Below, piece by piece: positions 3,486-17,373 of a stretch of DNA of 26,271 bases (within the stretch, counting starts at the first letter, position 1; every line of letters begins with the position of its first letter). The translations under genes and the position numbers were made by a program. Source of the DNA: a virus. The stretch covers positions 1 to 26,271 of the IMG/VR virus record IMGVR_UViG_3300031974_004356, one strand, 5' to 3'. The notes under the pieces were generated by a model. The model did no database searches and had not been told where the DNA came from. It worked only from the letters and a program-made list of their open reading frames with translations.

Positions 3486-3563
3486 ATAAGGCCAGGAGAA
3501 ACTTGGCCCCACCCCCCTGGGGACGTGTGCGCATATTTATGTGTGCGTGTGTGTGAAAAAGGG

Positions 3564-3684: not shown

Positions 3685-3689
3685 TCAAC

Positions 3690-3869: not shown

Positions 3870-4003
3870 CTAATGGGTGGCGCAGGTCTCGGGCACAGGG
3901 TAGTGTGGGCGCTCGAAATTCTATTGAGGAATCTCGAAGCGTCCGTAGCTGGCAGGCTGCGGTGAGGCCGGCACCGCGTGAGGACCGGCCACCTGCCACC
4001 CCT

Positions 4004-4270: not shown

Positions 4271-4283
4271 AAAGGTCCTGGGA

Positions 4284-4946: not shown

Positions 4947-5464
4947 TAGTCAGCTTTGGGTTGCAACGCCTTCCACTCATTACGGGCACGATCACGGTGA
5001 GCCATGGTCTCGGTCCAATTCTCTTCGGCTTGCTTGGTTAGCAGCGTAACTTCGGCGCCCTTGCTGCCAACCTCAGCCGACTTGGCGATGGTCAGGTCGC
5101 GCAGATCAGAGCAGACAGAGCCGAAACCGTGGGCGAAGCACTCGGCGTAGTGGCCGGTGATTTGGTGGACGACTTTCTCCTCGTCTTCGTTGCAGTCCTG
5201 GTACTCGAGGACCTTGTCCTCAAGGACGTTGATTGCGTTCTCGTACTGCTGAATCTTGTGCAAGGCCTTGGTGATGTCGCGCTTGAGTTCGTCGCGGTGC
5301 TCGTAGTAAGCCTTGCGCTCTTCGTTGAGACGGACCACTTCGGGGTCGCTGTCGATGTAGTCGTGGACGCTCAAGCTGGCGCGGGGATCGACCTTGGGCT
5401 CGGGCTTAGGTGCGGCTTTTGCGGGGCGGCCGACTTTGCGGCGGGGATAAACGCCTTTAGGCAT
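4946..5464 (-). CDS. coiled-coil protein with basic N-terminal tail
   Basis: The 172-residue product starts MPKGVYPRRKVGRPAKAAPK, whose GRP-type basic tail resembles an AT-hook and could bind DNA. From about residue 45 to 95 it is a heptad-like coiled coil (LNEERKAYYEHRDELKRD, then LHKIQQYENAINVLEDKV), and a second helical stretch ends the protein. The leader ACTTACCCTTATCC about 15 bases upstream of the ATG is a variant of the CTTAYCGCTTA leader. It is the first gene of a five-gene leftward unit. Function unknown; a DNA-organising role is only a guess. Confidence 0.7.
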   Translation of the reverse strand: MPKGVYPRRKVGRPAKAAPKPEPKVDPRASLSVHDYIDSDPEVVRLNEERKAYYEHRDELKRDITKALHKIQQYENAINVLEDKVLEYQDCNEDEEKVVHQITGHYAECFAHGFGSVCSDLRDLTIAKSAEVGSKGAEVTLLTKQAEENWTETMAHRDRARNEWKALQPKAD

Positions 5465-5516
5465 TGCTTTGAGGGGGGATAAGGGTAAGTGGCGGGCCAG
5501 TGGGCTCGCCGTTGAG

Positions 5517-5533
5517 AAAATACTACATTCCTC
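5517..5533. promoter_or_regulatory. candidate bidirectional promoter element
   Basis: The plus strand reads AAATACTACATTCC, close to the TAGTACATTCC before 14691. The minus strand reads GGAATGTAGTATTTTC, a looser match to TTTGTAGTACAATC. It lies between the leftward 172-residue gene and the rightward gene at 5632, so it could serve either. Confidence 0.4.
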
Positions 5534-5631
5534 AGCGGCGGTTTGGCAAGTAGGTGGGCGTGAGACTAATTAGACACGGAATGCGATGGACGGGGTGCTT
5601 AGTCTGCGGGGGTTCGCTTAGGCGCAATGAC

Positions 5632-5862
5632 GTGGATTACTGGCAGTCCCGGCTTCGCAAAGCCTTGAACCCCGAGATCCAAAATCTCCAGCGCCTTATA
5701 GACGCGCATACGGAGCGCTACTTCAGGTTTGGCGATTACGCGGACCAGCAGCAGGCAGACGTTCTGCGGCGCAGACTTACGGAGCTCAAGCAGGAACTGC
5801 TCAGAGCTGAGGAGATTCAGGCACAGGGAGCGCCACACTCTGAACAGACGCCACATTCCTGA
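5632..5862 (+). CDS. small helical protein on the opposite strand
   Basis: The frame is open from a GTG at 5554, but the protein-like part begins at GTG 5632 and gives 76 residues: YWQSRLRKALNPEIQNLQRL, DYADQQQADVLRRRLTEL and a polar tail. It is amphipathic and probably coiled coil. It is alone on the plus strand between leftward genes, and its last 62 bases overlap the 3' end of the convergent 160-residue gene. The ATG at 5581 is another possible start. Family not recognised. Confidence 0.5.
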   Translation: MDYWQSRLRKALNPEIQNLQRLIDAHTERYFRFGDYADQQQADVLRRRLTELKQELLRAEEIQAQGAPHSEQTPHS

Positions 5863-6283
5863 CGCCGGGATACTTGACCGCGATCTGGACAGCGTCGAAG
5901 ACGTTGAGGGCGTCGATCTCGACTTCAAGCTGGGTGCCCTTAGCGGTGTAGCACTTAGCCACGTAGCGCTGGCCGGAGGGCGGCGTTGTTTTGGGCGTAG
6001 CTGTTGCCTCGCGGTCTAGTGCGACGGCCTGGATGACGGTCAGGTTGTCGTCAAAGTCGGCGGAGGTATAGACCGCGCTGTGGTCGTACCAGCCCAGGGT
6101 GTTGTAACGGGCGTCGTGGTTGGGGGTGGCGGATTCGGTGCGGCTAAGTAGGGCGCGGGTGGTCCACTCCGGGGCGTCGTTGAGGTATTGATCGACTGCG
6201 AGTTCCTCGGCTTCTTCGGGGCTCTCGGCGTAGCAAAGGCACTCCGTCGTCAGCGTGACGGTGTACAGGCGGTGGGTAGACAT
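5801..6283 (-). CDS. hypothetical protein (160 aa), two beta-alpha-beta units
   Basis: I start at ATG 6283; the upstream extension runs into the ligase end. The N-terminal unit HRLYTVTLTTECLCYAESPE followed by EAEELAVDQYLN, and the C-terminal unit RYVAKCYTAKGTQLEVEID followed by FDAVQIAVKYPGVRNVASV, each read as two strands, a helix and a strand. This is the pattern of several 55-75-residue genes in the window, so the gene may be a tandem or divergent fusion of that fold. It lies 16 bases after the ligase stop, probably in the same transcript. Function unknown. Confidence 0.65.
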   Translation of the reverse strand: MSTHRLYTVTLTTECLCYAESPEEAEELAVDQYLNDAPEWTTRALLSRTESATPNHDARYNTLGWYDHSAVYTSADFDDNLTVIQAVALDREATATPKTTPPSGQRYVAKCYTAKGTQLEVEIDALNVFDAVQIAVKYPGVRNVASVQSVALPVPESPQL

Positions 6284-6299
6284 CGGGTCTCGGCAGTAA

Positions 6300-7088
6300 T
6301 TAACGCTTGATGGCGAGTGCCCAGTTGAAGCACAAGTCACTCTGACCCAACTTTTTCTGGGTGGCGTGATCGTGGATCTTTACGACAATCCCGTCGCAGT
6401 TCCATTTGCTGAAGCGCTTGCCATCGCGCCACTCGTTGAAGACCTGGCGGACTTGTTTGGCGGGGCAGAGCAGGTTGTCGGGCACCTCAAAACCGAGCTT
6501 GGAAAGTTCGCGCAGGGCGATCGTTTCGTTGGTTTCGGCGCCGTAGATGCGGAAAGCGCAGAAGCCCAGGTTGCGGCGGGTGCGCGGGTCTTTTGTTGTG
6601 GGTTTGCGTTCCAGGGACATGAAGCGCATGGCCTGGGCAGCGTCGGTTTGGGAGTGGGCCTTGTCGGTGCCGTACAGCTCGCCGTGGACCTCGAAAATGC
6701 CGCCCTGTTCGATCACGGATGGGATGGCAGGGATTTGGCGGGCCAGTGCCGTGAGGTCTTTGCCGCTGCGGTTCCACGCGTCGGTCAGGATGCCACTGAC
6801 GTAGCGCAGGGCCAGGGTGCAACCGTCGATCTTGGGTTGCACGACTAGGGAGGGAACCGTGCGGATCTTCTCGATCCAGTCCTCGAACGGATAGTTGTCG
6901 AGGCTGAGCATCTCCGGGTCGCCCTTGTCGTACAGCTCTTTTGCCTCGGGGTCGCGACGGCGCAGCTCGATGACCTTGCGATCGAACTCTTCGTCGGTGA
7001 CGCGGGGCGTGCCAGCTCGGTAGGCGGCGTTGTCGCCACGGATCTGGTGCCGTAACTCGGCAATCGGCAACTGCTGTAAGGAGACCAC
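6300..7088 (-). CDS. ligA-like: NAD+-dependent DNA ligase, adenylation domain only
   Basis: The 262-residue product carries the N-terminal NMN-binding region (YRAGTPRVTDEEFD, about 23-36), LSLDN (61-65), the nucleotidyl-transfer lysine in PKIDG (Lys86), GELYG with Glu137, CDGIVVKI (231-238) and NWALAIKR at the end (Lys261). These are motifs of LigA ligases, but full LigA is about 670 residues; the OB fold, zinc finger, helix-hairpin-helix and BRCT domains are missing and the protein stops just at the AIK motif. I start at GTG 7088, because CCTTACCGCTTATCTCC directly precedes it; GTG 7121 is the alternative. It should react with NAD+ to form ligase-AMP, but sealing nicks may need a partner. 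Transcription probably starts from the element at 7126-7140. Confidence 0.85.
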   Translation of the reverse strand: MVSLQQLPIAELRHQIRGDNAAYRAGTPRVTDEEFDRKVIELRRRDPEAKELYDKGDPEMLSLDNYPFEDWIEKIRTVPSLVVQPKIDGCTLALRYVSGILTDAWNRSGKDLTALARQIPAIPSVIEQGGIFEVHGELYGTDKAHSQTDAAQAMRFMSLERKPTTKDPRTRRNLGFCAFRIYGAETNETIALRELSKLGFEVPDNLLCPAKQVRQVFNEWRDGKRFSKWNCDGIVVKIHDHATQKKLGQSDLCFNWALAIKR

Positions 7089-7091
7089 GGA

Positions 7092-7109
7092 GATAAGCGG
7101 TAAGGGGGT
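7092..7109 (-). promoter_or_regulatory. CTTACCGCTTA leader motif before ligase
   Basis: The minus strand reads CCCCCTTACCGCTTATCTCC, then GTG 7088. The core CCTTACCGCTTA is identical to the cores before 2232 and 2876. It lies inside the reading frame if the GTG at 7121 were used, which argues for the 7088 start. Confidence 0.5.
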
Positions 7110-7125
7110 GCGGTCAGGCACAGGC

Positions 7126-7142
7126 CGATTGTACTACAAATT
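7126..7142 (-). promoter_or_regulatory. promoter of the ligase gene
   Basis: The minus strand carries ATTTGTAGTACAATC, identical over 15 bases to the sequence before the DNA polymerase gene. TACAAT would be a -10 box (five of six matches to TATAAT); no convincing -35 is seen. It lies just downstream of a strong terminator, so a new transcript starts here. Confidence 0.65.
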
Positions 7143-7153
7143 TCAGGGAAGAG

Positions 7154-7227
7154 AAAAAAGGGCGGTTGCGCAGGCCACCCTCCTGTTCCTCTCGGGTACA
7201 CGCTAGGTAGGCCAGCCTTAACCGCCC
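7154..7227 (-). terminator. long intrinsic terminator
   Basis: On the minus strand GGGCGGTT (7227-7220) pairs with AACCGCCC (7167-7160), with a further GGCC/GGCC pairing inside, followed by six T. The first arm contains the stop codon of the 239-residue gene. It separates that gene from the ligase promoter. Confidence 0.75.
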
Positions 7228-7937
7228 AAGGCTTGACGTAAAGATTTCTGGAGCAGTTTGGGAAGTTCGAGGCTTGCGCTGTCCTCGACGTAGAGCTTCA
7301 TGTCGAAGATCGTCGGAACCTTGGGCTGGCGGGTGGTGTAGTTGAACAGGTTGACTGGGTTGCCGCGGCCCTTCACCCGGTAGATACCTGGTGAGAGGTT
7401 GCTGCGCGAACCAGGTGCCACGGAGATGTAGCGGTAGCCGCTGCTCGTGCCATTTGGGTTTGTGAGGCCAGTTTTGATCTGTTGGTATTGGCCGGGAGAG
7501 ACGTTGCCGTATTGGTTTAGGCGGATGGCAGGGCTCTCGAAGTTGGGGATGGCGTAGGTTTTGGCGTCGATCTTGCGGGGACCGTCCAGACCGCGCAGGA
7601 ATTTGACGAAGCGGGTGTCGAGTGCGGCTTTGCGACCGCGCGAGTCCTGAGCACTGACTGGGTAGAGGTACGCTTTCGGCGATTGGCCCTTATCCTCGAT
7701 GTCCTTGATGTAGAGGCGGGCCTCCATACCCTTGACCTCGTACTTACCCGAGTTCTGGGTGCGAGGTACGGGGCTCTCGAAGGCGTCACGCATCTCCCTG
7801 GGCAATTCCTTTTTGGCGAATTGGTAGGCCCACTGGTTCAGTGCCCGGTTGGCCGCGTAAGGGATTTGGACTTTTTCGATGATGTTGAGCTTGCCGATTA
7901 GTTTCTCGACGTCCCACTCGATTGATTGACCAGCCAT
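7218..7937 (-). CDS. phage protein resembling minor tail protein Z
   Basis: The 239-residue product begins MAGQSIEWDVEKLIGKLN and continues IPYAANRALNQWAYQFAKKE, REMRDAFESPVPRTQNS, ARLYIKDIEDKG, then NQYGNVSPGQYQQI. That order (small all-helical start, ALN segment, FxxPxPxT, lysine-rich strands, a YGN-SxGQ turn) is one I associate with a broad family of phage proteins often labelled minor tail protein Z-like; the role is not well established. It sits among replication genes rather than beside recognisable tail genes. It starts just after a GCGAGTCC repeat copy, with TATAGAT immediately before the ATG, and ends within a terminator. Confidence 0.55.
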   Translation of the reverse strand: MAGQSIEWDVEKLIGKLNIIEKVQIPYAANRALNQWAYQFAKKELPREMRDAFESPVPRTQNSGKYEVKGMEARLYIKDIEDKGQSPKAYLYPVSAQDSRGRKAALDTRFVKFLRGLDGPRKIDAKTYAIPNFESPAIRLNQYGNVSPGQYQQIKTGLTNPNGTSSGYRYISVAPGSRSNLSPGIYRVKGRGNPVNLFNYTTRQPKVPTIFDMKLYVEDSASLELPKLLQKSLRQALGG

Positions 7938-7939
7938 AT

Positions 7940-7963
7940 CTATAACCGTGTGTCTGCGAGTCC
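7940..7963 (+). repeat. isolated GCGAGTCC repeat between genes
   Basis: The plus strand reads CTATAACCG, nine to ten variable bases, then GCGAGTCC. It matches the first unit of the 3564-3684 block. On the minus strand it ends in GGTTATAGAT directly before the ATG of the 239-residue gene, so it could carry that gene's promoter. Confidence 0.5.
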
Positions 7964-7982
7964 CCAGCCTAAGTAGGTGGGA

Positions 7983-8810
7983 TTAACCGGGTGCCTGTAG
8001 GTCCTGGTGGAGTTGGTCGAAGTACTCGTGGCAGCGTTCCAGGTAGCGAACTTCGGCACCGCGGAGTTCCAGCTCGGTGAGCTCCCTTACTTGGGCAGGG
8101 CCTGCACGGCGGGCCACAACGATGACGGCGCCTTTGGCTTGGACGTTGGCGACATGTTTTAGTCCTAAGGAATAAGCGCCTAGCTGGTCCGTGTAGTCGG
8201 TGAGCATCTCCTCGGAGCGCTTATTGGCTGACGTCTTCCAGTCGCAGATGAAGGGGCCTTTGCCCTTCACGTAGCCCAAAAAGTCAGCCGTGCCAGCAAA
8301 ACCTGCGGGGTGGTGGATAGAGAATTCGATGCCGTGGATGGCAGTTACGTTCTCCTCAATCCACTGCAACAGGGAGCGGCGGTAACCGCTCGCGCTCAGG
8401 CCGACCTTTGGTGCGCTGGGTAGTGCCTGTTTTATGGCCCATTGGGTGAGTGGGGCCGGGACGCTGTGCAATCCCTCGCGGTTGATGTAGGTCGTGCGCT
8501 TCTTTTCGCTGGTGGCTTCGGCCATCTTTTTGGCCGTGCGCAGGACGTACTCGGCGGAGTTGTGGGTGCGGGTGCCGCGCTCGGCTGCGGTGTCACGTTC
8601 CACTGCTGCAAGTTCCTCGCCAAGGCGCTTTTTCCAGGCTTCGAGTGCGTCCTTGGACTTGGATGTAGCCCCGAGTATGCGGGTCACGCTGTGGAAGACC
8701 TCGCCTTCTTCGTTGCGATAGATGCGGCCGTTGGGATCTGTCTCGTCGTCGCGAGTCAGCTTGTTCTGGAATGCAGCGTTCAGCTTTGGATTGAACTCAA
8801 ACGCTGCCAT
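7983..8810 (-). CDS. PD-(D/E)XK nuclease of the RecB/Cas4 type
   Basis: The 275-residue product has RGTRTH (79-83, the RGxxxH motif), HGIEFSIHH (Glu162), GTADFLG (Asp176), ICDWKTS (Asp190 and Lys192) and DQLGAYSLGL (Gln209, Tyr213). This is the full PD-(D/E)XK catalytic set with the QxxxY motif of RecB/Cas4 exonucleases. Such phage enzymes usually act on DNA ends in recombination or replication. It lies between the gpZ-like gene and an ssDNA-binding-protein candidate, with a large hairpin in front (8855-8891). No cysteines for an Fe-S cluster are present, unlike Cas4. Confidence 0.85.
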   Translation of the reverse strand: MAAFEFNPKLNAAFQNKLTRDDETDPNGRIYRNEEGEVFHSVTRILGATSKSKDALEAWKKRLGEELAAVERDTAAERGTRTHNSAEYVLRTAKKMAEATSEKKRTTYINREGLHSVPAPLTQWAIKQALPSAPKVGLSASGYRRSLLQWIEENVTAIHGIEFSIHHPAGFAGTADFLGYVKGKGPFICDWKTSANKRSEEMLTDYTDQLGAYSLGLKHVANVQAKGAVIVVARRAGPAQVRELTELELRGAEVRYLERCHEYFDQLHQDLQAPG

Positions 8811-8854
8811 GTTTTCCGGTGTATTCGTTTTTATAGGTTAGCCGTTAGATAAAG

Positions 8855-8891
8855 GAATACCCCCCAGTAGTTGGCGTACTGAGGGGTATTC
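8855..8891 (-). promoter_or_regulatory. large inverted repeat before the nuclease gene
   Basis: GAATACCCC and GGGGTATTC flank CAGTA/TACTG with one C-A mismatch between, a 14-bp stem around a 7-base loop. On the minus strand the stem is followed only by CCTTTATC, so it is a poor intrinsic terminator; an RNA-processing or regulatory hairpin fits as well. It lies between the Cys-rich gene and the nuclease gene. Confidence 0.6.
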
Positions 8892-8914
8892 ACTCTCCAG
8901 GAGCCTAACAGTAA

Positions 8915-9097
8915 TTAGGCGGCTTTCTCGAACTCAACGCATGAGTCTGTGCGACTAATGCGAGGTCCGAGAGGGCAGTCCTCGAAGTCTTCGGTTGGGG
9001 GAGCGAGCCTTTGGCATGAGCCATAGGCGCTCCACCTCCCTCGGATTCGGTCGAACAGTGCCCAGCGGCAATTGAAGCACGTTTGCCGCGAAATCAA
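8915..9097 (-). CDS. small cysteine-rich protein (60 aa)
   Basis: The start is TTG 9097, overlapping the TGA of the preceding gene (TTGA), so translation is probably coupled. The product reads ISRQTCFNCRWALFD, then GSCQRLAPP, DCPLGP and DSCVEFEKAA. Cys7, Cys10, Cys28, Cys41 and Cys53 give a CxxCxW-start zinc-binding layout like that at 4284-4475. Its partners are the ssDNA-binding-protein candidate upstream and the nuclease downstream. Function unknown. Confidence 0.65.
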   Translation of the reverse strand: MISRQTCFNCRWALFDRIRGRWSAYGSCQRLAPPTEDFEDCPLGPRISRTDSCVEFEKAA

Positions 9098-9672
9098 GCC
9101 TCGGGGCGGAAAGGGTTGCCACCGCTGATCACTTGCTTAAGGTCGAAGCCCGCTGCTTGGGTTTCGGCCCAGGCGTCGGCCAGCACTTCGTCCATGCCCT
9201 TCTTGCGGTTGGCAGGAAGCAGCTTGTACTCGGTGGTGAGGCCTGCGCCGGTCTTGCCCAGGGTGAAGTCGCACTCAAGGACGTTCCAGTCCTCGGATTG
9301 GGAGATCGAGTCGATCTCGCGGATCAATCCCTTCTGGTTGAGCTGCATCACTTCGACGCGCTCGGTGTCGTAGTTGTACACGGGCAGAGCGATGAAGAAC
9401 TTCATCGGCTCAAAGCCGGTGCCCTCGCGGTTCATCCGGCGGTTGTACTCGCCGAGGCTGGCGTCGATCTCAGCCGGGGTGGGCTCATGGTCGAAGCGGA
9501 AGGACTTGGCCTTGCCGTCGCCGTCTTCAGCCCAGAGCTCGTAGCCCTCGACAGGCTCTTCGCTTAACAAAGCGAAACGAACGCTGGTGCCGGAGACAAT
9601 CTTGCTGGGGTTGAGGTAACCGCCAGCGCCGCCGCTGACTGCTGCTTTGGCGGATTTGGATAGGAGTGCCAT
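9094..9672 (-). CDS. candidate ssDNA-binding protein
   Basis: The 192-residue product starts MALLSKSAKAAVSGGAGGYL and continues with LNPSKIVSGTSVRFALLSEE, a strand-rich core (MKFFIALPVYNYDTERVEVM, LECDFTLGKTGAG, TEYKLLPANRKKGMD) and an acidic-to-polar tail. The order of strands, LNxxK start and TGAGLTTEYKL segment resembles phage OB-fold ssDNA-binding proteins encoded beside polymerases. That is recalled resemblance, not proof. The start is ATG 9672; the frame upstream crosses the primase promoter region. It is divergent from the primase-helicase and heads the unit with the Cys-rich protein and nuclease. Confidence 0.5.
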   Translation of the reverse strand: MALLSKSAKAAVSGGAGGYLNPSKIVSGTSVRFALLSEEPVEGYELWAEDGDGKAKSFRFDHEPTPAEIDASLGEYNRRMNREGTGFEPMKFFIALPVYNYDTERVEVMQLNQKGLIREIDSISQSEDWNVLECDFTLGKTGAGLTTEYKLLPANRKKGMDEVLADAWAETQAAGFDLKQVISGGNPFRPEA

Positions 9673-9725
9673 GGGGGGTTGCTGGGTGGCGGTGCCGCTG
9701 TAGGTGGCGTTGCCGAGTTGCCCAA

Positions 9726-9741
9726 ACACCTTATGTGGTGT
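9726..9741. promoter_or_regulatory. dyad in divergent promoter region
   Basis: ACACC-TTATGT-GGTGT is a perfect 5-bp dyad between the leftward ssDNA-binding-protein candidate and the rightward primase-helicase. It could be an operator or a short hairpin. Confidence 0.3.
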
Positions 9742-9770
9742 GTCAACCCCTTGACGAGATGCGTACTGTG

Positions 9771-9807
9771 AAAAACGCTCCGCCTGGTTTTTACACCAAA
9801 CGGAGCG
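9771..9807 (-). terminator. leftward terminator-like hairpin before the primase-helicase
   Basis: CGCTCCG pairs with CGGAGCG, with an inner TGGT/ACCA stem. On the minus strand it is followed by TTTTT, so it faces leftwards. No leftward gene lies immediately to its right, so it may insulate against antisense transcription, or act as a leader hairpin in the rightward RNA. Confidence 0.55.
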
Positions 9808-9834
9808 CATGTCGTTCCGCTTACTGAGTATCGC

Positions 9835-12336
9835 ATGAGTCCCAACAAACAACTCATTGGATTCGTTAATTCGCTTCCTGTTGGTCCCGCCTATACGCCT
9901 ATTTATGCGAAGGGCGTTGTCTACGGAAAGAACCGCATTGTCAGTAAGGGCAAGAACCCTCACGAGGATTCGTTCAAGCGGCACATGTCGCCTGGTGATG
10001 TCTCACTGTTCTTAGAGCGAGTCCCAGAAGAGTTCGTTGCGGTTGGATTATTTACCGGAATTCGCTCTCAAGGTCTCGTCATTCTCGACGTAGACGCAAA
10101 CCTCGCAACCTTGTCGAAAAAGTGGGGCGACTCACTAAAAGACGCACCCAAGATTATTAGTACGAAAAAGAATGCGGCCAAATACGTCTTCCGTGTACCT
10201 GAAGACCAGAGAGCTCAGGTCAAGGGTTTTGGCCTCTCACACACTGGTGAGGGCTACGAAGTTCTGTGGGGCAAACAAGGCGTAATCGGCGGTACTTACC
10301 CCGGTTCTTCTGATGGCAAGGCACCTGCAGGTACTTACAAGCTTGCAGCAGGTGACTTCAACCAGATCCCTCAGGCTCCTGAGTGGCTCTTGGCTGAGAT
10401 GCGTGCCCGCTACGTACAGGATACGCCGTCCCAGACTAGCGGCCTTGTCAAGAACCGGAAGGGCCTCGACTTTTCCGGGAGAACCGAGGACGAGGTCGCT
10501 GAAATCATTCGCGACTGTCTGACCGTGTTGCCTCAGTGCGGGCGGGGTAATGAGGATGACTGGTGGATCGTCGGCGCAATGATTGCCGAAGACCTGCCCA
10601 ACGACCTGGGCCTGACCCTGTGGTCTGCTTGGTCCGCTGAAGACTCCGATTACGAGGAGGATTGGAAGCGGGGCAACCCCTGCGCCGAAAAATGGCCTCT
10701 GATCCTGCAGAAGGCGGGGCGACCGGGTAACGCCGGCCTGGGCAGCCTGATCCGCCTTGCAGACGGCTACGACCCCAACAGGGAGCGATTTCAAGACTCC
10801 AGCAGGGAGACGCTTGACCAAGTCGAGAGCTCGCAGGTTCAACGCTTCCAGACAGTTGCCCTCTCCTTTGAGCAACTCCTCGAGCGTGCCAAGCAGATCA
10901 TCGAACTCGACAACCCGGCTGAGCTGAACTACGAGATGCACCGGCTGGCCGTCGAGGCGGGCCACCGAGATGCCGAGAAGATCGAGCGGATCCTGGTTGA
11001 TCAGCTCGCTTACGAGAAGAGCCGCGATGCGATCACGATCGACGAGCTGCTCAACACCGACTTTCAGCGGGAGTACTTGATCCCGGATTTGCTGGCCAAG
11101 CCCTCCACCGTGTTGATGTACGGCTCTGGGGGCGATGGCAAGTCGATGGCTGCTTGGACCCTGGCTAAGCACATCGCTACCGGCGCGCCATTCAAGATCC
11201 GTGGTCAGGCGGTTCCGGTTCAGAAGGGCGGCGTTCTGATCCTCAACGGCGACCAGCCGCTCATTCAGGTGCAGGAGCAGTTGGAGGAGGTGGACTTCCC
11301 GCGTGGGACCAATGTGACGATCCGCAGCGACTTCCAGATCCAGCGCTACGGCTTCTTCATCCGCCAGATCGAGAAGTACCGGCCCAAGCTCGTGATCATC
11401 GACTCGCTGATTGGCTGCAGCGGCGGCAAGGCCTTCGACGAGAACAAGAGCGACTTCGCCACTCCGCTGTATTGGCTGACCCGGAACAACGGTGACGCCT
11501 TCCCGCCCACGACGATCGTGGTAATCCACCACGCGAACAAAAACGGCAACTTCAGGGGCAGCACTGCGATTCGGGACGCCGTGGATGAGGTCATCTCGCT
11601 GAAAAAACCTGACGACAAGCAGATCGAGCAGACGGGCCAGTCCGCGCGGATCCTGACGTTCGAGAAATCCCGCAGCGGTCGCGGTGGCACGCAGCTGCTG
11701 ATGAAGCAGCAGGCCGACTTGAGCTACACGCTCCAGGACTGGACCCCAGAGGTCGATCCCACCAACGCAGCGCCCTCTGGAATCAGCGACAGGGTGCTTC
11801 AGCGGCTGCGGCTGGCTAAGGAGCCCAGAACCCTCAAGCAGCTCCAGGCAGACCCCACCTGCGGCGGCAACAACGAAGCCGTCAAGAAGGCGCTCCAACG
11901 CTGGAAGAAGAAGGGCCTGGTGGAGATCGTGGGTGCGTCTCAAGAAACTCAAGGCAAGAAACCTCAGTTTTTGTATAGGGCTGTGGTTGTTCCCCCGCGG
12001 GGAGAGTGTGTTGAAAATGTCCCTTTAGGGGCTAATCCAAGTAGTGGTACGGGATTTGAAAAAGGGACAGCATCTAAAAAAGAGGAAGTTGTCCCTTTTA
12101 CTGAGGGGCAGGTTCAAGCCGGTGATAACTCCACTGGAACGGAGGGGACAAAAAGGGACACCTTCTCTTCAGATTCGGAGTGTCCCCATTTGAATCCCTT
12201 GCAGGAGCAGGGTTTTGGGGGTAAAGGGACATCTGAACGCTCTATACGCGCAGGCGCGCGCGAGGAAGACGAGCCCAGCTTCAGCTACGAACAGAAGCGT
12301 CAGGCCATGAAGCAGATCGCTGAGGAGTGGGGCTGA
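9835..12336 (+). CDS. bifunctional primase-polymerase / helicase
   Basis: The 833-residue product has three parts. Residues 1 to about 190 look like a prim-pol domain: LFTGIRSQGLVILDVDAN with the DxD pair Asp85/Asp87, KNAAKYVFRVP, and VIGGTYPGSS. Around 220-320 is a primase C-terminal-like segment (WWIVGAMIAEDLPNDLGLTL, WSAWS). About 415-590 is a RecA-fold helicase of the RepA type: Walker A GSGGDGKS (Lys436), Walker B LVIIDS (Asp523), VVIHHANK and RGSTAIRDAVDEV. A winged-helix-like segment follows (SDRVLQRLRLAKEPRTLKQL), then a low-complexity tail. It should prime and unwind at the replication fork for the polymerase next door. The tail DNA carries the AAAGGGACA repeats. Start context: CCGCTTACTGAGTATCGC before ATG. 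Confidence 0.85.
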   Translation: MSPNKQLIGFVNSLPVGPAYTPIYAKGVVYGKNRIVSKGKNPHEDSFKRHMSPGDVSLFLERVPEEFVAVGLFTGIRSQGLVILDVDANLATLSKKWGDSLKDAPKIISTKKNAAKYVFRVPEDQRAQVKGFGLSHTGEGYEVLWGKQGVIGGTYPGSSDGKAPAGTYKLAAGDFNQIPQAPEWLLAEMRARYVQDTPSQTSGLVKNRKGLDFSGRTEDEVAEIIRDCLTVLPQCGRGNEDDWWIVGAMIAEDLPNDLGLTLWSAWSAEDSDYEEDWKRGNPCAEKWPLILQKAGRPGNAGLGSLIRLADGYDPNRERFQDSSRETLDQVESSQVQRFQTVALSFEQLLERAKQIIELDNPAELNYEMHRLAVEAGHRDAEKIERILVDQLAYEKSRDAITIDELLNTDFQREYLIPDLLAKPSTVLMYGSGGDGKSMAAWTLAKHIATGAPFKIRGQAVPVQKGGVLILNGDQPLIQVQEQLEEVDFPRGTNVTIRSDFQIQRYGFFIRQIEKYRPKLVIIDSLIGCSGGKAFDENKSDFATPLYWLTRNNGDAFPPTTIVVIHHANKNGNFRGSTAIRDAVDEVISLKKPDDKQIEQTGQSARILTFEKSRSGRGGTQLLMKQQADLSYTLQDWTPEVDPTNAAPSGISDRVLQRLRLAKEPRTLKQLQADPTCGGNNEAVKKALQRWKKKGLVEIVGASQETQGKKPQFLYRAVVVPPRGECVENVPLGANPSSGTGFEKGTASKKEEVVPFTEGQVQAGDNSTGTEGTKRDTFSSDSECPHLNPLQEQGFGGKGTSERSIRAGAREEDEPSFSYEQKRQAMKQIAEEWG
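12018..12231. repeat. iteron-like AAAGGGACA cluster within the primase-helicase gene
   Basis: Five exact 9-mers AAAGGGACA or its complement: 12018-12026 (complement), 12061-12069, 12090-12098 (complement), 12152-12160, 12223-12231. Two partial copies, GGGGACA at 12144-12150 and TGTCCCC at 12181-12187, lie among them. They fall in all three reading frames, so they are not a protein repeat. Confidence 0.8.
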
Positions 12337-12503
12337 TGGAGCGCAAGAAGTTCACCCCGCCGACGGAGCAGGAGCGCCTTGCGCGCTTCTTCGCCGATTT
12401 GGAGCGAGCCATTCCTGAACCTCCTTCGGGTTGGCTCAGCGACGCTTTGCCCCCCGGTTCGACTACACGGACCAGGGGCCACCGTGGGCACCTTTTGCCC
12501 TGA
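12336..12503 (+). CDS. small protein (55 aa) coupled to the primase-helicase
   Basis: ATG overlaps the stop of the primase-helicase as TGATG. The product begins MERKKFTPPTEQERLARFFA, a charged helix, followed by PEPPSGWLSDALPPGS and a basic tail. It ends at the start of the polymerase promoter. No family recognised. The coupling supports translation; the tail, which reads less naturally than another frame, is a reason for caution. Confidence 0.5.
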   Translation: MERKKFTPPTEQERLARFFADLERAIPEPPSGWLSDALPPGSTTRTRGHRGHLLP

Positions 12504-12518
12504 TTTGTAGTACAATCA
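12504..12518 (+). promoter_or_regulatory. promoter of the DNA polymerase gene
   Basis: ATTTGTAGTACAATC is identical to the sequence before the ligase gene. TACAAT (12511-12516) would be the -10 box, 20 bases from the polymerase ATG, so the transcript would have a leader of only about a dozen bases, most of it CCTTATCGCTT. No clear -35 is seen. Confidence 0.65.
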
Positions 12519-12524
12519 ACTCAG

Positions 12525-12535
12525 CCTTATCGCTT
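12525..12535 (+). promoter_or_regulatory. CTTATCGCTT leader before the polymerase
   Basis: CCTTATCGCTT directly abuts the ATG at 12536. It replaces a Shine-Dalgarno at this start and sets the polymerase start here instead of at an upstream in-frame ATG at 12431. Confidence 0.5.
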
Positions 12536-14413
12536 ATGACGTTCACTGAATGGTCTGCGTCACCTGAGACGCTCCACGGAATCGAGTTCCTTCACTGGGT
12601 CTACGACTCCCCACTCATTGCCTTCGACACAGAGACGACGGGACTTAAGCCCAAGACTGGCGGCTTACGTCTACTGCAGTTGGCCGCACCAGGTAAGCCG
12701 GTGGTCGTTATTGACCTCTGGGATCTTGACGAGGAGCAGTGGGATCAGGTCAGGGAGTTCTTCACCGCCATCGAAGATCGCGAGTGGTACGCCCACAACG
12801 CCACCTTTGACTTGGCCTGGCTCCAGCAACACGACATCTACCCCGAGGGGATGGTGTTCTGCACCATGCTGGCTTCGCGTCTGCTGGAGAACGGCATTCC
12901 TAATGTCCGCAATGGCTTGGCGCCGGCTTGTAAGCGCTATCTCAAAGTCGACGTCAGTAAGGAGGAGCAGGCGTCTGACTGGTCTAAACCGGATCTCAGC
13001 GAGTCCCAGAAGACCTACGCCGCCAACGACGTTCGCATCCTTCTGCAGCTTGCTCAGAAGGTCACCGATCTCCTGTTCGCTCGCCGTCTCTTTACGGCTT
13101 GGCGGATTGAGTGCAGAGCTCTCCAGGCCATCGCTCACATGCAGCTGACCGGTCTTCCCTTCAACCGGACCAAACTTGAGGAGCTGCAAAAGCACTACGA
13201 GGGCGAGATTGAGCGTCTAGGTGCTGAGTTTCTTGAAAACCTCGATGCCGCGATGCCTGACGCGGAAAAGCTGCCACGGGATGACGATGGCACGTTCAAT
13301 CTGCGGGCCAAAGCGACGGGCCACGTAAGGCTGGGGACCAAGAAGTTGGCTGGCTTCAATCTCAACTCGCCTAAGCAGCTGGTCCACAAGCTTGGCGTCC
13401 TTCTGGGCGAGGAGCCCAAGGACAAGAACGGCAAACCAAGTGCGTCTCGGCAGGCTCTTCGTTCTTACGCAGCGGACCACAAGGTCATTCAGTTGTATTT
13501 GGCCTGGAAGAAGGCTGAGAAACGCCGTCAGATGGTCGTGGCATTACTCGATCACCAGGACCCCGATGGGTTTATTCGTGCGAATTACCTGCAACTTGGG
13601 GCGGATACAGGAAGGATGTCGTGCCGGGAGCCGAATCTTCAGCAAGTCCCGCGGGACAAAGGGTTCCGTCAGGCAGCTGAAGCGCCCGAGGGTTGGAACT
13701 TTGTTGTCGCGGACTTTGGTCAGATGGAGCTTCGTCTCGCCGCCGCAGTCTCTAAGGACGCTCTGATGATTAGTGCGTTCCAACGCGATGAAGACCTGCA
13801 CACAATTACCGCCCAGGCGATTTATCCCGAACCGACTGAGGACGAAGCGGAGCTCAAAGCGCGTCGCCAAGTAGCCAAGTCGGCCAATTTCGGGCTGCTC
13901 TACGGCTCGGGGGCCAAAGGACTTCGGGATTACGCCGGTGCCATGGGTATCACCATGACTGTGGAGGAAGCGGAAAAGATCCGCGAGACGTTCCACAACA
14001 CCTATCAGGGCATTCATGACTGGCAGAGGAAGAACGCCAACCTGGCCAAGATGACTGAGCATGAAAGGTTTGCCGAAATTCGCATTCCAAAGACGGAGAT
14101 GCGTCGCTTCCTTATTGGCGACATGAACCGCCTGACTACTCGATGCAACACCCCAATTCAGGGAGCTGGCGCGGCCATTCTTAAGTTTGCGCTTGCGAAT
14201 CTTTGGCCGTTACTCCATAAAACCGGCACCTCGCAAGTCCGGCTCGCCGCTGTCGTCCATGACGAAATTGTGCTGCTGGTACGTGAGGGGCTTGAGGAGG
14301 AATGGGCTAAGCGCTTGAGCGAAACCATGGAAGCAGCTGAAGCCAAGTGGCTTGGTGAAATCCCCGCTTTGGCGGAGGCTGCCTGGGGTAAGACCTGGTC
14401 GGAGGCCAAGTAA
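12536..14413 (+). CDS. polA: DNA polymerase I (family A) with 3'-5' exonuclease
   Basis: The 625-residue replicative polymerase has exonuclease motifs FDTETTG (Asp31, Glu33), AHNATFDLAWL and YAANDVRILL (about 164-173), then a polymerase domain with motif A ADFGQMELR (Asp393), O-helix RRQVAKSANFGLLYG and motif C VHDEIV (Asp576). The O-helix position equal to E. coli Phe762 is Phe452, not the Tyr or Leu seen in many phages. Motif A has Gly and Met where DFSQIELR is usual. There is no 5'-3' nuclease domain, as is normal for phage enzymes. The start follows the 12504 promoter and leader. The 3' part contains one copy of the ATAAACCGG-GCRAGTCC repeat. Confidence 0.95.
   Translation: MTFTEWSASPETLHGIEFLHWVYDSPLIAFDTETTGLKPKTGGLRLLQLAAPGKPVVVIDLWDLDEEQWDQVREFFTAIEDREWYAHNATFDLAWLQQHDIYPEGMVFCTMLASRLLENGIPNVRNGLAPACKRYLKVDVSKEEQASDWSKPDLSESQKTYAANDVRILLQLAQKVTDLLFARRLFTAWRIECRALQAIAHMQLTGLPFNRTKLEELQKHYEGEIERLGAEFLENLDAAMPDAEKLPRDDDGTFNLRAKATGHVRLGTKKLAGFNLNSPKQLVHKLGVLLGEEPKDKNGKPSASRQALRSYAADHKVIQLYLAWKKAEKRRQMVVALLDHQDPDGFIRANYLQLGADTGRMSCREPNLQQVPRDKGFRQAAEAPEGWNFVVADFGQMELRLAAAVSKDALMISAFQRDEDLHTITAQAIYPEPTEDEAELKARRQVAKSANFGLLYGSGAKGLRDYAGAMGITMTVEEAEKIRETFHNTYQGIHDWQRKNANLAKMTEHERFAEIRIPKTEMRRFLIGDMNRLTTRCNTPIQGAGAAILKFALANLWPLLHKTGTSQVRLAAVVHDEIVLLVREGLEEEWAKRLSETMEAAEAKWLGEIPALAEAAWGKTWSEAK
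14217..14239 (+). repeat. GCRAGTCC repeat copy inside the polymerase gene
   Basis: ATAAAACCGGCACCTCGCAAG then TCC differs from the unit at 3661-3684 by one inserted A and one G-to-A change. It is translated just before motif C of the polymerase. Confidence 0.6.
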
Positions 14414-14422
14414 TGCGCCGTT

Positions 14423-14440
14423 ACTTAATCTCTATTAAGT
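14423..14440 (+). promoter_or_regulatory. perfect 7-bp hairpin after the polymerase
   Basis: ACTTAAT-CTCT-ATTAAGT lies ten bases after the polymerase stop and 19 bases before the next ATG. There is no T-tract, so a terminator is unlikely; it may control translation of the downstream gene or protect the RNA end. Confidence 0.45.
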
Positions 14441-14459
14441 TGCACGCCCAGCGCACTGC

Positions 14460-14663
14460 ATGGCCCGAACTGGTCGCCAAATCATGGTGGCTTGGTTGCA
14501 GGATGAAATGCGCGACGCGACAACCGCTGATCTACAGCGGGCTGCTGAATTTCTGGCCTTTGCTAAGGATGTCCGTAAAGGCTGTACTAAGCAGAGACGC
14601 ACCAGTCGCAAAGCGCAACGGTCCGCTTGGCGAAAGCACCTTGACCCCAGTATTCGCTGGTAG
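14460..14663 (+). CDS. small basic protein (67 aa)
   Basis: Starts MARTGRQIMVAWLQDEMRDA and continues TADLQRAAEFLAFAKDV, then a Lys/Arg-rich tail (CTKQRRTSRKAQRSAWRKH). Amphipathic helix plus basic tail suggests nucleic-acid binding. A frame opening at 14413 on the polymerase stop crosses the same DNA but reads less like protein. No family recognised. Confidence 0.6.
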   Translation: MARTGRQIMVAWLQDEMRDATTADLQRAAEFLAFAKDVRKGCTKQRRTSRKAQRSAWRKHLDPSIRW

Positions 14664-14670
14664 TACATTC
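14659..14670 (+). promoter_or_regulatory. GGTAGTACATTC promoter element
   Basis: GGTAGTACATTC is a close relative of the ATTTGTAGTACAATC element. TACATT (14664-14669) ends 21 bases before the ATG at 14691, the same spacing as for the polymerase, and the leader TTACCTTTGCCCTT abuts that ATG. Confidence 0.5.
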
Positions 14671-14690
14671 CAATCGTTACCTTTGCCCTT

Positions 14691-14942
14691 ATGAGCGCCC
14701 GCGTAATGCACGGCAATAAGCGCCGTTTCCAGGTCCTGCTTGACCCCAATCGTGCCAAATTATTCGATGCGTTGGCAGAACAAGATTGCTTAAAGACCAG
14801 TGCTTTTTTGCGCAATCGGTTGTATGAAGCTCTTGAATCGCTAGTGCCTCGTGCCGCTTACGAAAGAGCTAAGGAAGCAGACGCCGCTCTTAAAGCAGAA
14901 TCCAGCAAACTCCAGTCTCGGATTCGCCGATCTCGTAAGTAG
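14691..14942 (+). CDS. probable ribbon-helix-helix DNA-binding protein
   Basis: An 83-residue product. After MSARVMHGNK comes a strand RRFQVLLDP, helix AKLFDALAEQDCLKTS and helix AFLRNRLYEALESL, the layout of CopG/Arc-type ribbon-helix-helix repressors, followed by a charged coiled-coil tail (LKAESSKLQSRIRRSRK). It has its own promoter-like element, as a regulator would. The target is unknown; the nearby dyads at 14423 and 15740 are candidates to test. Confidence 0.6.
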   Translation: MSARVMHGNKRRFQVLLDPNRAKLFDALAEQDCLKTSAFLRNRLYEALESLVPRAAYERAKEADAALKAESSKLQSRIRRSRK

Positions 14943-14946
14943 TGCG

Positions 14947-15036
14947 GTGACTCAGAACCAGCTTGTCGTTCTGTTTGGCATCACCTGGCTACTTGGTCTT
15001 TTGGTCGTCACCATTTTTCTTACTCAGTTCTCGTGA
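14947..15036 (+). CDS. 29-residue single-span membrane peptide
   Basis: GTG start five bases after the previous stop. The product MTQNQLVVLFGITWLLGLLV and a short rest are almost entirely one transmembrane helix. Its TGA overlaps the GTG start of the next gene (GTGA), which supports translation. Function unknown. Confidence 0.5.
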   Translation: MTQNQLVVLFGITWLLGLLVVTIFLTQFS

Positions 15037-15212
15037 ACCCCTACGCCAACTACCGTCGCGGTCTCGGTACTTACGAGATCAGCTACAGGCGTGACAACAG
15101 CACCCTTATCAAATCCGTGCGGATTATGGCTGAAGATGACTATGCGGCGGCCATGCTGGTCCGCGACTCTTTCCTAGATGCCACGATCATCAAGATCACG
15201 CAACTGAGTTGA
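15033..15212 (+). CDS. 59-residue protein, predicted beta-alpha-beta
   Basis: Begins MNPYANYRRGLGTYEISYRR; strand TLIKSVRIMA, helix DDYAAAMLVRDSFLD and strand ATIIKITQLS follow. It shares the mini-fold pattern of the genes at 1729, 15212, 16796 and 19770. GTG start overlapping the upstream TGA; its own TGA overlaps the next ATG (TGATG). Function unknown. Confidence 0.6.
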   Translation: MNPYANYRRGLGTYEISYRRDNSTLIKSVRIMAEDDYAAAMLVRDSFLDATIIKITQLS

Positions 15213-15379
15213 TGCGCAAATTCGTCTTCTACATCGGCAGTTTGGGTCTTTATGAGGTCATCCAGGCTGCAAATGTGTATGACGCACGCCAGAAGTTGCG
15301 CTCTGGCTCTCTTTACCGTTTTTACAGCCAAGCTGTCCTTATCTCGGAGTCTGAACCGTGTTACAGAGCCTCGGATTGA
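15212..15379 (+). CDS. 55-residue protein, predicted beta-alpha-beta
   Basis: MRKFVFYIGSLGLYEVIQAA, then VYDARQKLRSGSLYRF and a strand QAVLISESEP. Same short pattern as the preceding gene, so the two may be tandem duplicates that diverged. Overlaps the next gene by 22 bases. Function unknown. Confidence 0.55.
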   Translation: MRKFVFYIGSLGLYEVIQAANVYDARQKLRSGSLYRFYSQAVLISESEPCYRASD

Positions 15380-15576
15380 AGTTGATTCGCATGGGATCTA
15401 AGCGTCCCATCTGGGTGGTACGTCCACCGAAGTGGATCGTCGAGCATTTAGAGCCCCAGCCAGTGAATGGGGAGCACAACAGGTTGACGGGGATTGGCGT
15501 TTGGATGCTGAAGCGCGCCAATCCCCTTGCGGCCGTGGACTTTACGAAGCGGATTGTGAAAGTGACTCTTCCTTGA
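15358..15576 (+). CDS. hypothetical protein (72 aa)
   Basis: GTG 15358 gives MLQSLGLKLIRMGSKRPIWV and continues VVRPPKWIVEHLEPQPVNG, then RANPLAAVDFTKRIVKVTLP. Strand-rich and basic. ATG 15391 is another start and would avoid the overlap with the preceding gene. The last 35 bases overlap the 3' end of a convergent HTH gene. Family not recognised. Confidence 0.5.
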   Translation: MLQSLGLKLIRMGSKRPIWVVRPPKWIVEHLEPQPVNGEHNRLTGIGVWMLKRANPLAAVDFTKRIVKVTLP

Positions 15577-15712
15577 TCCAGCGAAGAACGCGGGTGTAGG
15601 GAATGCGGAGTGCGCGGGAGATTGATTTCCCGCTCATCCCGCCTTTATGCATGAACTGCACAAGGTGGGCATCCGGCGGAGCAGGGTCTTTTTTAGCTTC
15701 TTCCTTACTCAC
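15542..15712 (-). CDS. small helix-turn-helix protein
   Basis: The 56-residue product contains GGMSGKSISRALRIPYTRVL followed by RWIKEE, a helix-turn-helix read as in resolvase-type or Xis-like small regulators. I choose GTG 15712; an in-frame ATG at 15733 would add seven residues. It is the only leftward gene in this stretch and is divergent from the gene at 15779, with a TGTAC-GTACA dyad between the two. That arrangement is typical of a small repressor and its target, which is inference. Confidence 0.6.
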   Translation of the reverse strand: MSKEEAKKDPAPPDAHLVQFMHKGGMSGKSISRALRIPYTRVLRWIKEESLSQSAS

Positions 15713-15739
15713 CAAATTGCACCATAAATGCATGTGGAG

Positions 15740-15756
15740 TGTACGCTATTTGTACA
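15740..15756. promoter_or_regulatory. TGTAC/GTACA dyad between divergent genes
   Basis: TGTACGCTATTTGTACA is a perfect 5-bp dyad with a 7-base spacer, midway between the leftward HTH gene and the rightward gene at 15779. It looks like an operator for a dimeric regulator. Confidence 0.4.
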
Positions 15757-15778
15757 GCCCGCGCCTGTTCTGGTAGTT

Positions 15779-16060
15779 ATGTCACCATTTGAGCGAGTCC
15801 CCATGTCAGAGGTCAAAGTTCGTACTGGCCGTGCGTGCAAGACAACGCCTCTTCGTGAAGAAGTTTTGGCGATGAAGCCGGGCGATGCGATCTATGTGCC
15901 CTACTACGACGCTGAAACTGGCAAGGGCTACAAGCCCACCACGATCTCCCAGGTAGTGGGTGTGATGAGTCGGGCCAGTGAAAAAGTCAGGTACTCCGTT
16001 CGCCGGGATGCCACGCGCCCTGGCTGCTTCGTTCTCTGTCTTGAGAAGCCTGCAGCCTGA
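15779..16060 (+). CDS. hypothetical protein (93 aa)
   Basis: Begins MSPFERVPMSEVKVRTGRAC and continues LREEVLAMKPGDAIYVPYYD, then TISQVVGVMSRASEKVRYSV and a cysteine-containing end. The KPGDAIYVP and RYSVRRD strands suggest a small alpha/beta domain. An internal ATG at 15803 is an equally good start, directly after a GCGAGTCC octamer. It is followed by the hairpin at 16084. Family not recognised. Confidence 0.6.
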   Translation: MSPFERVPMSEVKVRTGRACKTTPLREEVLAMKPGDAIYVPYYDAETGKGYKPTTISQVVGVMSRASEKVRYSVRRDATRPGCFVLCLEKPAA

Positions 16061-16083
16061 GTCTCATTTGATGCTGTAGAATG

Positions 16084-16109
16084 TAAGTCCCGGTACAGAC
16101 TGGGACTTA
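16084..16109 (+). terminator. hairpin in the leader of the 16125 gene
   Basis: TAAGTCCC pairs with GGGACTTA, with GGT/ACT inside and an ACAG loop. TCGTTTTATG follows, so it may be a weak terminator or attenuator. Its 3' arm overlaps the ACTTATCGTTTTA leader, so folding could control that start. Confidence 0.45.
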
Positions 16110-16124
16110 TCGTTTTATGTAATC

Positions 16125-16595
16125 ATGGACACAAAGCCCGCACCACTCACCTTTGTCAGCAAGTCCCTCAATCGCCTTGTCGCGATGGACGAGCTACGCA
16201 AGCTAAGTAGTTCAGACCTGGACCGGTTCAATGGTGAGCTGGCCATGGCGGCACGTTCCATGGAGAACGCACTCTCCGACGCCATGCAGAGAGAGCTTTC
16301 TACTGGGCAGCCTGTCGATCCTGACTGGGTTCACAAGATTCGCAGGAAGATGAACGTCTGCCATGCGTTTCGGACCAATCTTGCGCAGCTGCTTAAAGGG
16401 TCGGACCAGCCCGAGATTCTTGAGATCCGTAAAGCTACCCAGGAGCCAAGCAACGAGCTGGTTACTCAGCTAGCCGAGGAAAAATTTCAAGAGCTGCTTA
16501 TTGACGAGCTTGGCGAGCGCCTGTTCAAGGAGCTTCAGGAGGAAGCTGTTGAACTTGCTCTTGAAGATCTTCGACTAAAAACTCAAGCCTCATGA
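16125..16595 (+). CDS. hypothetical protein (156 aa), paralogue of 4004-4270
   Basis: Begins MDTKPAPLTFVSKSLNRLVA. The block LVAMDELRKLSSSDLDRFN and the later DPDWVHKIRRKMNVCHAF parallel the 88-residue protein at 4004-4270; this copy carries an extra acidic, helical C-terminus (EEKFQELLIDELGERLFKEL). Probably all-helical. Its 3' end overlaps a leftward gene by 71 bases. Function unknown. Confidence 0.7.
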   Translation: MDTKPAPLTFVSKSLNRLVAMDELRKLSSSDLDRFNGELAMAARSMENALSDAMQRELSTGQPVDPDWVHKIRRKMNVCHAFRTNLAQLLKGSDQPEILEIRKATQEPSNELVTQLAEEKFQELLIDELGERLFKELQEEAVELALEDLRLKTQAS

Positions 16596-16737
16596 TCTCG
16601 TGAACCGCGGACTGAAGCATCTCCTGGTAAGACATCAGAGTCTTAAACAGATAGGCTTCTCGCGGCTCCATCTCACGGGATGCCAACTCGATTGAGAGCT
16701 CGCGTTCGGGTGTTACATCCCGGTTAAACCAGGCCAT
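16525..16737 (-). CDS. small coiled-coil protein (70 aa)
   Basis: I start at ATG 16737, preceded by GGGAG as a Shine-Dalgarno at five bases and a CTATAGT box further up. The product starts MAWFNRDVTPERELSIELAS and ends in a coiled coil (AVHEIMRLEFLVEDLQEQVQ). It is a lone leftward gene whose 3' end overlaps the convergent 156-residue gene. Family not recognised. Confidence 0.6.
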   Translation of the reverse strand: MAWFNRDVTPERELSIELASREMEPREAYLFKTLMSYQEMLQSAVHEIMRLEFLVEDLQEQVQQLPPEAP

Positions 16738-16754
16738 AGCGCTCCCTGCATTTG

Positions 16755-16790
16755 AGTTACTATAGGTAGGCCCACTGCTCAATTATCTTT
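16755..16790 (+). promoter_or_regulatory. candidate promoter and leader for 16796
   Basis: TTACTATAGG (TACTAT as -10) is followed by the leader AATTATCTTTTATTT directly before the GTG at 16796, a variant of the CTTATCGCTTA leader. The complement CTATAGTAAC can serve the leftward gene at 16737. Confidence 0.4.
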
Positions 16791-16795
16791 TATTT

Positions 16796-17026
16796 GTGTC
16801 GGACTTTGCATTGAACACTACTTGGGATGATGATGCGGAATCTAAATCCCAGCACGGCGACGGCATTAGCAGGGCCGTTCCAGGTGCCAAAACCAAGCCT
16901 TTTAGGATCCGCGTCTCTCAAGTTGGCGCGAGTCCAATGTTCGTAGAGCTTCGGGCTGAGTCCAAGACTCATGCGTTGAAGTATGCGAAAGCGCGCTGGC
17001 CGTTGTCACAGCTTCAGGTGGTTTGA
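16796..17026 (+). CDS. hypothetical protein (76 aa), predicted beta-alpha-beta
   Basis: GTG start. A polar, probably flexible first half (MSDFALNTTWDDDAESKSQH) is followed by KPFRIRVSQVGASPMFVELR, helix KTHALKYAKARWP and strand LQVV, the mini-fold seen in several genes here. Its TGA overlaps the next ATG (TGATG). Function unknown. Confidence 0.65.
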   Translation: MSDFALNTTWDDDAESKSQHGDGISRAVPGAKTKPFRIRVSQVGASPMFVELRAESKTHALKYAKARWPLSQLQVV

Positions 17027-17373
17027 TGCCTGAGTTAGACATGGATCAGCTGAACTCTCTTATCAAAGAGGGGAAGGCTGAGATCGCCCGTAAGGCACGG
17101 ACCAACTCCACAAGCTGGAGGAGGGGCAACATCCCTCCCAACGCCCGGCTGACTCCAATAGATGCCGTGGAGATTCGGATGCTCGACAAGCAGGGGATGC
17201 CGTCGGCAAAAATCGCCGCCAAGTACGACATCTGCTATGTGCATGTCCGAAACATCGTTAATCGCCAAGCTTGGGTGAACGCCGAAAAACAACTGGCTGC
17301 TGAACATGAAAAGGTGTCCAAGCTGCGGGCAGAAAGCCCTGAAGGTGACCGAGGTCGAGCATCGAAAGCTTGA
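17026..17373 (+). CDS. helix-turn-helix protein (115 aa)
   Basis: Begins MPELDMDQLNSLIKEGKAEI. A HTH follows: LTPIDAVEIRMLDKQGMPSA, KIAAKYDICYVHVRNIVNRQ, then W. This layout (LTxxDAxxIRxLxxxGMxxxxIAxxY) is common in phage regulators and in HTH parts of HNH endonucleases, but there is no HNH here. The C-terminus is charged. The start overlaps the previous stop; the 3' end overlaps the zinc-ribbon gene by 68 bases. Probably binds DNA; target unknown. Confidence 0.7.
   Translation: MPELDMDQLNSLIKEGKAEIARKARTNSTSWRRGNIPPNARLTPIDAVEIRMLDKQGMPSAKIAAKYDICYVHVRNIVNRQAWVNAEKQLAAEHEKVSKLRAESPEGDRGRASKA

Follow-up and report, generated by a model that had tools for sequence, protein, structure and literature searches.

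An iteron array inside the 3' end of a phage primase-helicase gene, matched to the adjacent winged helix and probably a replication origin

The initiator gene of a phage known from metagenomic sequence carries at its 3' end an array of short repeats (iterons) which, as comparison with relatives shows, is under selection as a DNA element and is linked to that gene. By the same comparison, the iteron sequence corresponds to the identity of residue 684 in the winged helix of the initiator. The array is probably the replication origin of the phage or the part of the origin where the initiator is loaded. The window, which is the whole stretch of DNA that was analysed, is a virus record of 26,271 bases and probably a fragment.

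The initiator protein is composed, in order, of a primase-like N-terminal part, a RepA/DnaB-like hexameric helicase (AAA_25), a winged helix, a disordered tail and a C-terminal helix. In Pfam it matches AAA_25 (E 2.6e-16) and, at residues 226-309, PriCT_2 (E 1.4e-5), and in PHROG it matches primases and replicative helicases. A sequence search of solved structures with the initiator found none. The protein was modelled with AlphaFold2 from a 37-sequence alignment (mean pLDDT 74.6), and the best Foldseek match of the model is the RSF1010 RepA hexameric helicase (1nlf; E 6e-10, TM 0.65 on target length). The winged helix is modelled as three helices (650-660, 667-672 and 680-693) and two strands (696-702 and 711-716), and residues 719-815 are disordered in the model (pLDDT under 50). 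The gene and its relevant parts are as follows.

9835-12336, + strand: initiator gene, 833 residues
11767-11985, + strand: winged-helix domain, proposed reader of the array, about residues 645-717 (AlphaFold2 and covariation)
11872-11913, + strand: recognition helix, residues 680-693 (AlphaFold2)
11884-11886, + strand: codon of K684, within the modelled recognition helix
12286-12333, + strand: short C-terminal helix, residues 818-832, where order resumes after the array (AlphaFold2)

In many relatives the tail likewise has, after the disorder coded by the array, a short helix with an aromatic residue at its end (for example IAEEWG, AARMWD, AWKMWD). This helix is missing in relatives whose stop codon precedes or interrupts the array. 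It may be a tail that binds a partner protein.

The gene that follows, at 12431, encodes a family-A DNA polymerase (polA). Genes at 1-9984 run mostly leftward and those at 9835-20000 mostly rightward, with the initiator gene at the boundary; the array is near such a boundary also in the relatives looked at. Elsewhere in the window there are matches to the adenylation domain of an NAD-dependent DNA ligase at 6300-7121(-), a PD-(D/E)XK nuclease at 7983-8810(-) and a deoxynucleotide monophosphate kinase at 18460-19002(+). Rfam and tRNA scans yielded nothing.

The array contains seven GGGACA cores at 12018-12231, spread over three codon phases and two strands, and has flanking elements on both sides.

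11994-12006: left flanking element CCCGCGGGGAGAG, conserved in relatives as CTCGCRCGnGGAGAG
12018-12069: left end unit, TGTCCC ... GGGACA, with a conserved element between its two cores
12018-12023, - strand: iteron core 1
12064-12069, + strand: iteron core 2
12090-12095, - strand: iteron core 3
12145-12150, + strand: iteron core 4
12155-12160, + strand: iteron core 5
12181-12186, - strand: iteron core 6
12226-12231, + strand: iteron core 7
12181-12231: right end unit, TGTCCC ... GGGACA, oriented like the left unit (from the consensus of both units)
12242-12264: right flanking element CTATACGCGCAGGCGCGCGCGAG, in relatives CTATACGCGCG or TATCCCC.CGCGYGAG

The initial annotation had reported five exact 9-mers and two partial copies in both orientations, and their coordinates were verified. 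The 9-mer AAAGGGACA or its complement is found at 12018-12026(-), 12061-12069(+), 12090-12098(-), 12152-12160(+) and 12223-12231(+), all within the array, and is absent from the rest of the 26 kb record; the partial copies are cores 4 and 6. Together with the preceding bases the window iteron reads AAAAGGGACA.

In the window the array is wholly coding. It specifies residues 728-799, inside the disordered segment, in agreement with the earlier description of the host protein segment as low-complexity. Such a disordered tail could suggest that the repeats arose at the protein level, from a repeated peptide, codon bias or low-complexity drift. The probability of this is practically nil, because the cores occupy all three frames and both orientations and because synonymous resampling does not reproduce them. 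When the codons of the tail were re-drawn synonymously in 20,000 trials, the maximum number of GGGACA cores was six and the mode one, against seven observed, and AAAGGGACA reached at most two copies, against five. The initial annotation was thus right that protein sequence cannot explain the repeats. A protein-level origin is also refuted by arrays located past the stop codon in relatives. On the other hand, some 9-mer occurred five times within 214 nt in one of 100 Markov-simulated windows, so that the repeat cluster of this single window is only suggestive, and it is the comparative evidence that decides.

Relatives were collected by a protein search of viral contigs, which gave 80 at 48-96% identity, and the set was enlarged by further scans and by five MAG contigs. 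There are 203 distinct loci in which the end of the gene and at least 250 nt downstream are present, mostly about 50% identical. Rather than vanishing where the protein is conserved, an outcome that the initial annotation had named as counting against it, the repeats are retained: 191 of the 203 loci have at least four cores of one class, and 202 at least three, inside a 260-nt stretch at the gene's 3' end. An alignment with relatives, also proposed there, shows that the iterons are kept while their surroundings drift. In the three closest relatives 42 of 42, 42 of 42 and 41 of 42 iteron bases are identical, compared with 90, 89 and 79% of the remaining array bases; the identity of the tail protein is 86, 86 and 69%. 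No close relatives were found among cultured phages of the collections searched, the only match being S-CBS4, at 26% over one third of the protein and lacking the array. No description of the array was found in the literature, where coverage was thin for subscription journals.

All sites are coding in 66 of 104 representatives of the family, and in the other 38 the array extends beyond the stop codon. Eight of these 38 have at most two coding sites, and the array is nearly all noncoding in L054, L056, L059, L068, L070 and L077. The arrays past the stop codon indicate that it is the DNA element that is selected and that the reading frame is optional.

The full array typically has eight sites, arranged - + + - | + - - +, with the two halves mirrored in their site positions. 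For instance, the sites of L056 are at positions 0, 44, 57, 72 | 93, 108, 121, 165. The two outer - to + gaps measure 43-46 nt, and from start to start 44-46 is the most frequent distance between - and + sites in the 104 relatives. The outer gaps belong to a 50-bp unit that is directly repeated and has the conserved interior ...AAAnCCCAGTG...GGGATCTG.... The iteron of relatives has G, T or A as its first base, followed by GGACA, and the layout is identical with GGGACA, TGGACA or AGGACA, showing that geometry outlasts sequence. The four to five bases before the iteron core are mostly common within a genome and different between genomes. Repeats outside the three main classes occur in L060, where they are GGTGGGAA-like, and in L014-L017, which have GGACAC-rich mixtures. 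The flanks of the array are conserved in relatives, being CTCGCRCG-rich on the left and CGCGYGAG-rich on the right.

The inverted repeats within the array and between its flanks resemble what would be expected of a stem-loop origin of the kind proposed for pRN1-type primase-helicases, to whose hairpin the iterons would be incidental. Such an origin is very improbable here, since in the 50-bp units conserved pairing is limited to the inverted iterons, no fold is conserved in the inner 38 nt, and the left and right flanking arms do not covary, matching better within their own genome than between genomes in only 51 of 89 cases.

When all viral contigs were scanned for a portion of the array geometry, with any of the three first bases and blind to protein, 112 stretches were obtained. 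In 99 of these the array is situated -361 to +81 nt from the stop codon of the initiator gene, and in one (L203) the distance to a partial gene is 951 nt. The remaining 12 have no detected initiator gene, and their arrays are near the end of the stretch. Arrays at most about 260 nt from the stretch end are those of L100, L120, L122, L123, L137, L150-L152, L162, L172, L174 and L192. Perhaps a variable cassette that breaks assemblies accounts for the location of these 12 arrays.

The association between protein residues and iteron bases was determined without the protein columns past residue 725, because these are coded by the array itself. The accompanying tree of 104 representatives was calculated with FastTree from sequences lacking the winged helix. 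Among the 70 GGGACA representatives, all 45 with Arg684 have T at base -1 and 24 of the 25 with Lys684 have G, C or A there, and all ten independent tree pairs change in the same direction. Residue 684 is Arg or Lys in every one of the 70 representatives with first base G; of the 34 whose first base is T or A, 28 have Q, H, G, T or S at this residue and six have R. Supported independent pairs for this second relationship number about 10:0 with four ties (sign test, p 0.002). The tree requires a minimum of 24 changes in the class of the first base and of 18 in residue 684 (R/K or other). Of the 568-577 protein columns outside the array, that of residue 684 shows the strongest association with iteron bases -1 and 1, and the next column of the winged helix carries under half its information. 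The exceptions to the code are L048 (K with T), three cases of R with TGGACA and three of R with AGGACA.

The reader of the array is, on this covariation, almost certainly the winged helix encoded just upstream. Adjacency combined with recombination could link reader and array, yet would not single out residue 684. As this residue is part of the modelled recognition helix, the simplest reading is binding of the iterons by the winged helix, with residue 684 contacting or sensing their first bases. In many relatives the wing residue 708 (codon 11956-11958 in the window) is Lys, Arg or Thr with G at base -3 and Gly, Ser or Ala with A. About 5:0 independent pairs (p about 0.06) make a second contact, between residue 708 and base -3, only suggestive.

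Covariation with the helicase's own winged helix also bears on whether the array serves another process, such as partition or packaging, or is a site for the RHH protein encoded at 14691, which the initial annotation had put forward as a possible binder. Iteron arrays do serve in partition, and some contigs end near the array. Nevertheless, a role of this kind is extremely improbable with the helicase's own domain as the covarying reader, and the RHH protein is not needed as binder.

Judging from two pairs of near-identical phages, the winged helix and the array are exchanged jointly as one cassette. In the pairs L253/L324 and L252/L282, identity is mostly 97-99% in the helicase part and directly after the stop codon but 68-83% across the winged helix and the array, and the iterons of the two members differ. 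Being adjacent in the DNA, the reader and its sites would move together as a single unit of specificity.

Some cyanobacterial plasmids encode AAA_25 helicases, only 20-30% identical, whose genes carry clusters of different iterons in their 3' part. The distant helicase loci with iteron clusters (L087, L204, L207, L208 and L212) are the following.

Anabaena cylindrica pANACY.03: TGGACAA, eight copies, 3' part of the AAA_25 helicase gene
Nostoc HK-01: AGTCAAC, seven copies, 3' part of the AAA_25 helicase gene
Nostoc C057: CTAACAC, eight copies, 3' part of the AAA_25 helicase gene
Anabaena pANA03: GTCAACA, ten copies, DUF3987 protein, found only through a common C-terminal segment
Alteromonas phage XX1924: TGAACCA, eight copies, just past the stop codon

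Each of the five clusters lies above all 200 simulations, and the spacing - (45-49) + (12) + (21-22) + is common to pANACY.03, HK-01 and C057. The cluster is not universal, as the other eleven distant helicases looked at are mostly without a clear one.

As in iteron-type origins, clustered short repeats lie beside the initiator gene, and covariation points to an initiator domain specific for the repeat. The gene product, in which a primase, a RepA-like hexameric helicase and a winged helix are joined, would bind the iterons (AAAAGGGACA in the window phage) through the winged helix. The two end units and the inner sites, with their opposing orientations, would position several initiator molecules, and these would allow helicase rings to be loaded and primers to be made. 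Physical binding, ring assembly, strand opening and the start of synthesis would thus all take place at the array.

The initial annotation had left open whether the repeats are an origin or an autoregulatory site. Operator arrays are also found beside regulator genes, and in the window polA starts only about 100 nt past the initiator stop, so that a transcriptional operator for the initiator's own gene or for the next gene has to be considered. However, iterons are missing upstream of the initiator gene (0.05 per kb, compared with 5.81 per kb at the array). A search for sigma-70 promoter-like sites in 11800-12700 found none, and the sole terminator-like site there is at chance level. Furthermore, the downstream gene varies, polA having been found in the 6 kb downstream in only 31 of 84 loci, at distances of 95-4306 nt, and the array travels with the helicase and not with the next gene. 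An operator is thus improbable. The origin is the better fit of the two, given the lack of upstream iterons and of a promoter-like site and the variable downstream gene, and autoregulation is disfavoured.

An auxiliary site at which the initiator binds, of which the crr site of satellite phage P4 is an example, could act in copy number control, cis activation or handcuffing, with the start of synthesis at another place. The comparative data establish a matched reader and array and leave initiation aside; GC skew, which in six genomes and the window is uninformative about the array as origin, does not mark the array. Among 22 records of 39-56 kb, however, 21 have the end-unit pattern at the array alone, so that no second iteron site of this kind is seen at which synthesis might start. 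In addition, the SaPI and SCCmec initiators have the same order of gene and iterons, and there the adjacent repeats are the (putative) origin (PMC7581432). An auxiliary site is therefore unlikely, though less so than an operator, and the origin, or its initiator-loading part, remains the preferred interpretation of the array.

Several known systems share features with this arrangement. In SaPI Rep and SCCmec Cch2 the helicase gene is followed by iterons that are read by the C-terminal domain, and two hexamers have been proposed (PMC7581432). The position of the iterons in or directly 3' of the helicase gene is the same here, as is the location of the reader, by covariation, on the C-terminal side. 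The window helicase appears to differ from that of SaPI in being RepA/DnaB-like (AAA_25) and fused to a primase, and the array differs in being mostly within coding sequence and in having a fixed two-unit geometry. In the Vibrio cholerae satellites PLE, according to the available part of the published account, the DNA-binding domain of RepA and the iterons covary and have been exchanged as a module several times; the exchange was shown experimentally and appears to be driven by a phage nuclease that cuts the origin (PMC8263062). Covariation and joint exchange of reader and iterons are thus common to both systems. The PLE initiator is of the RepA_N type, unlike the one described here, its origin is in a separate noncoding region, and a residue-level code is not reported in that part of the account.

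The origin of phage lambda lies inside the initiator's own gene O (PMC7157519). The iterons of the window are similarly inside initiator coding sequence, as they are in the 66 representatives mentioned above. Lambda O is neither a helicase nor a primase, and its reader and iteron arrangement are unlike those of the window array. In RSF1010 the iterons are read by RepC and priming is carried out by RepB' (PMC4234260). The modelled helicase fold is nearest to RSF1010 RepA, but the primase is fused in one protein here and no conserved ssi-like hairpin was found. The primase-helicase ORF904 of pRN1 also has a winged helix and requires a site just 3' of its gene, an idea which the authors extend to phages with PriCT_2 (PMC4234260). 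It differs in its SF3 helicase and stem-loop origin, where the present family has iterons and no conserved stem. What appears to be new is an intragenic iteron origin of fixed geometry, to the extent that initiation occurs there, together with a residue-level recognition code and repeated switching of specificity.

A large group of phages, known in this analysis only from metagenomes, thus gains a probable origin, the protein that would read it and a recognition rule at the level of single residues, and a small protein domain together with short DNA duplexes would be enough to test all three. The geometry pattern finds the array of the initiator gene in contigs without protein comparison. More tentatively, with a chance somewhat short of even, a self-contained cassette of reader plus origin is, in principle, common to a large uncultivated phage family and distant cyanobacterial plasmids, and its specificity is repeatedly switched through the residue-to-base code, possibly because competitors or parasites that attack or exploit origins exert selection. 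With its many natural changes of repeat and reader, the phage family offers a ready experiment on how the specificity between initiator and origin evolves and on the reason for its frequent change.
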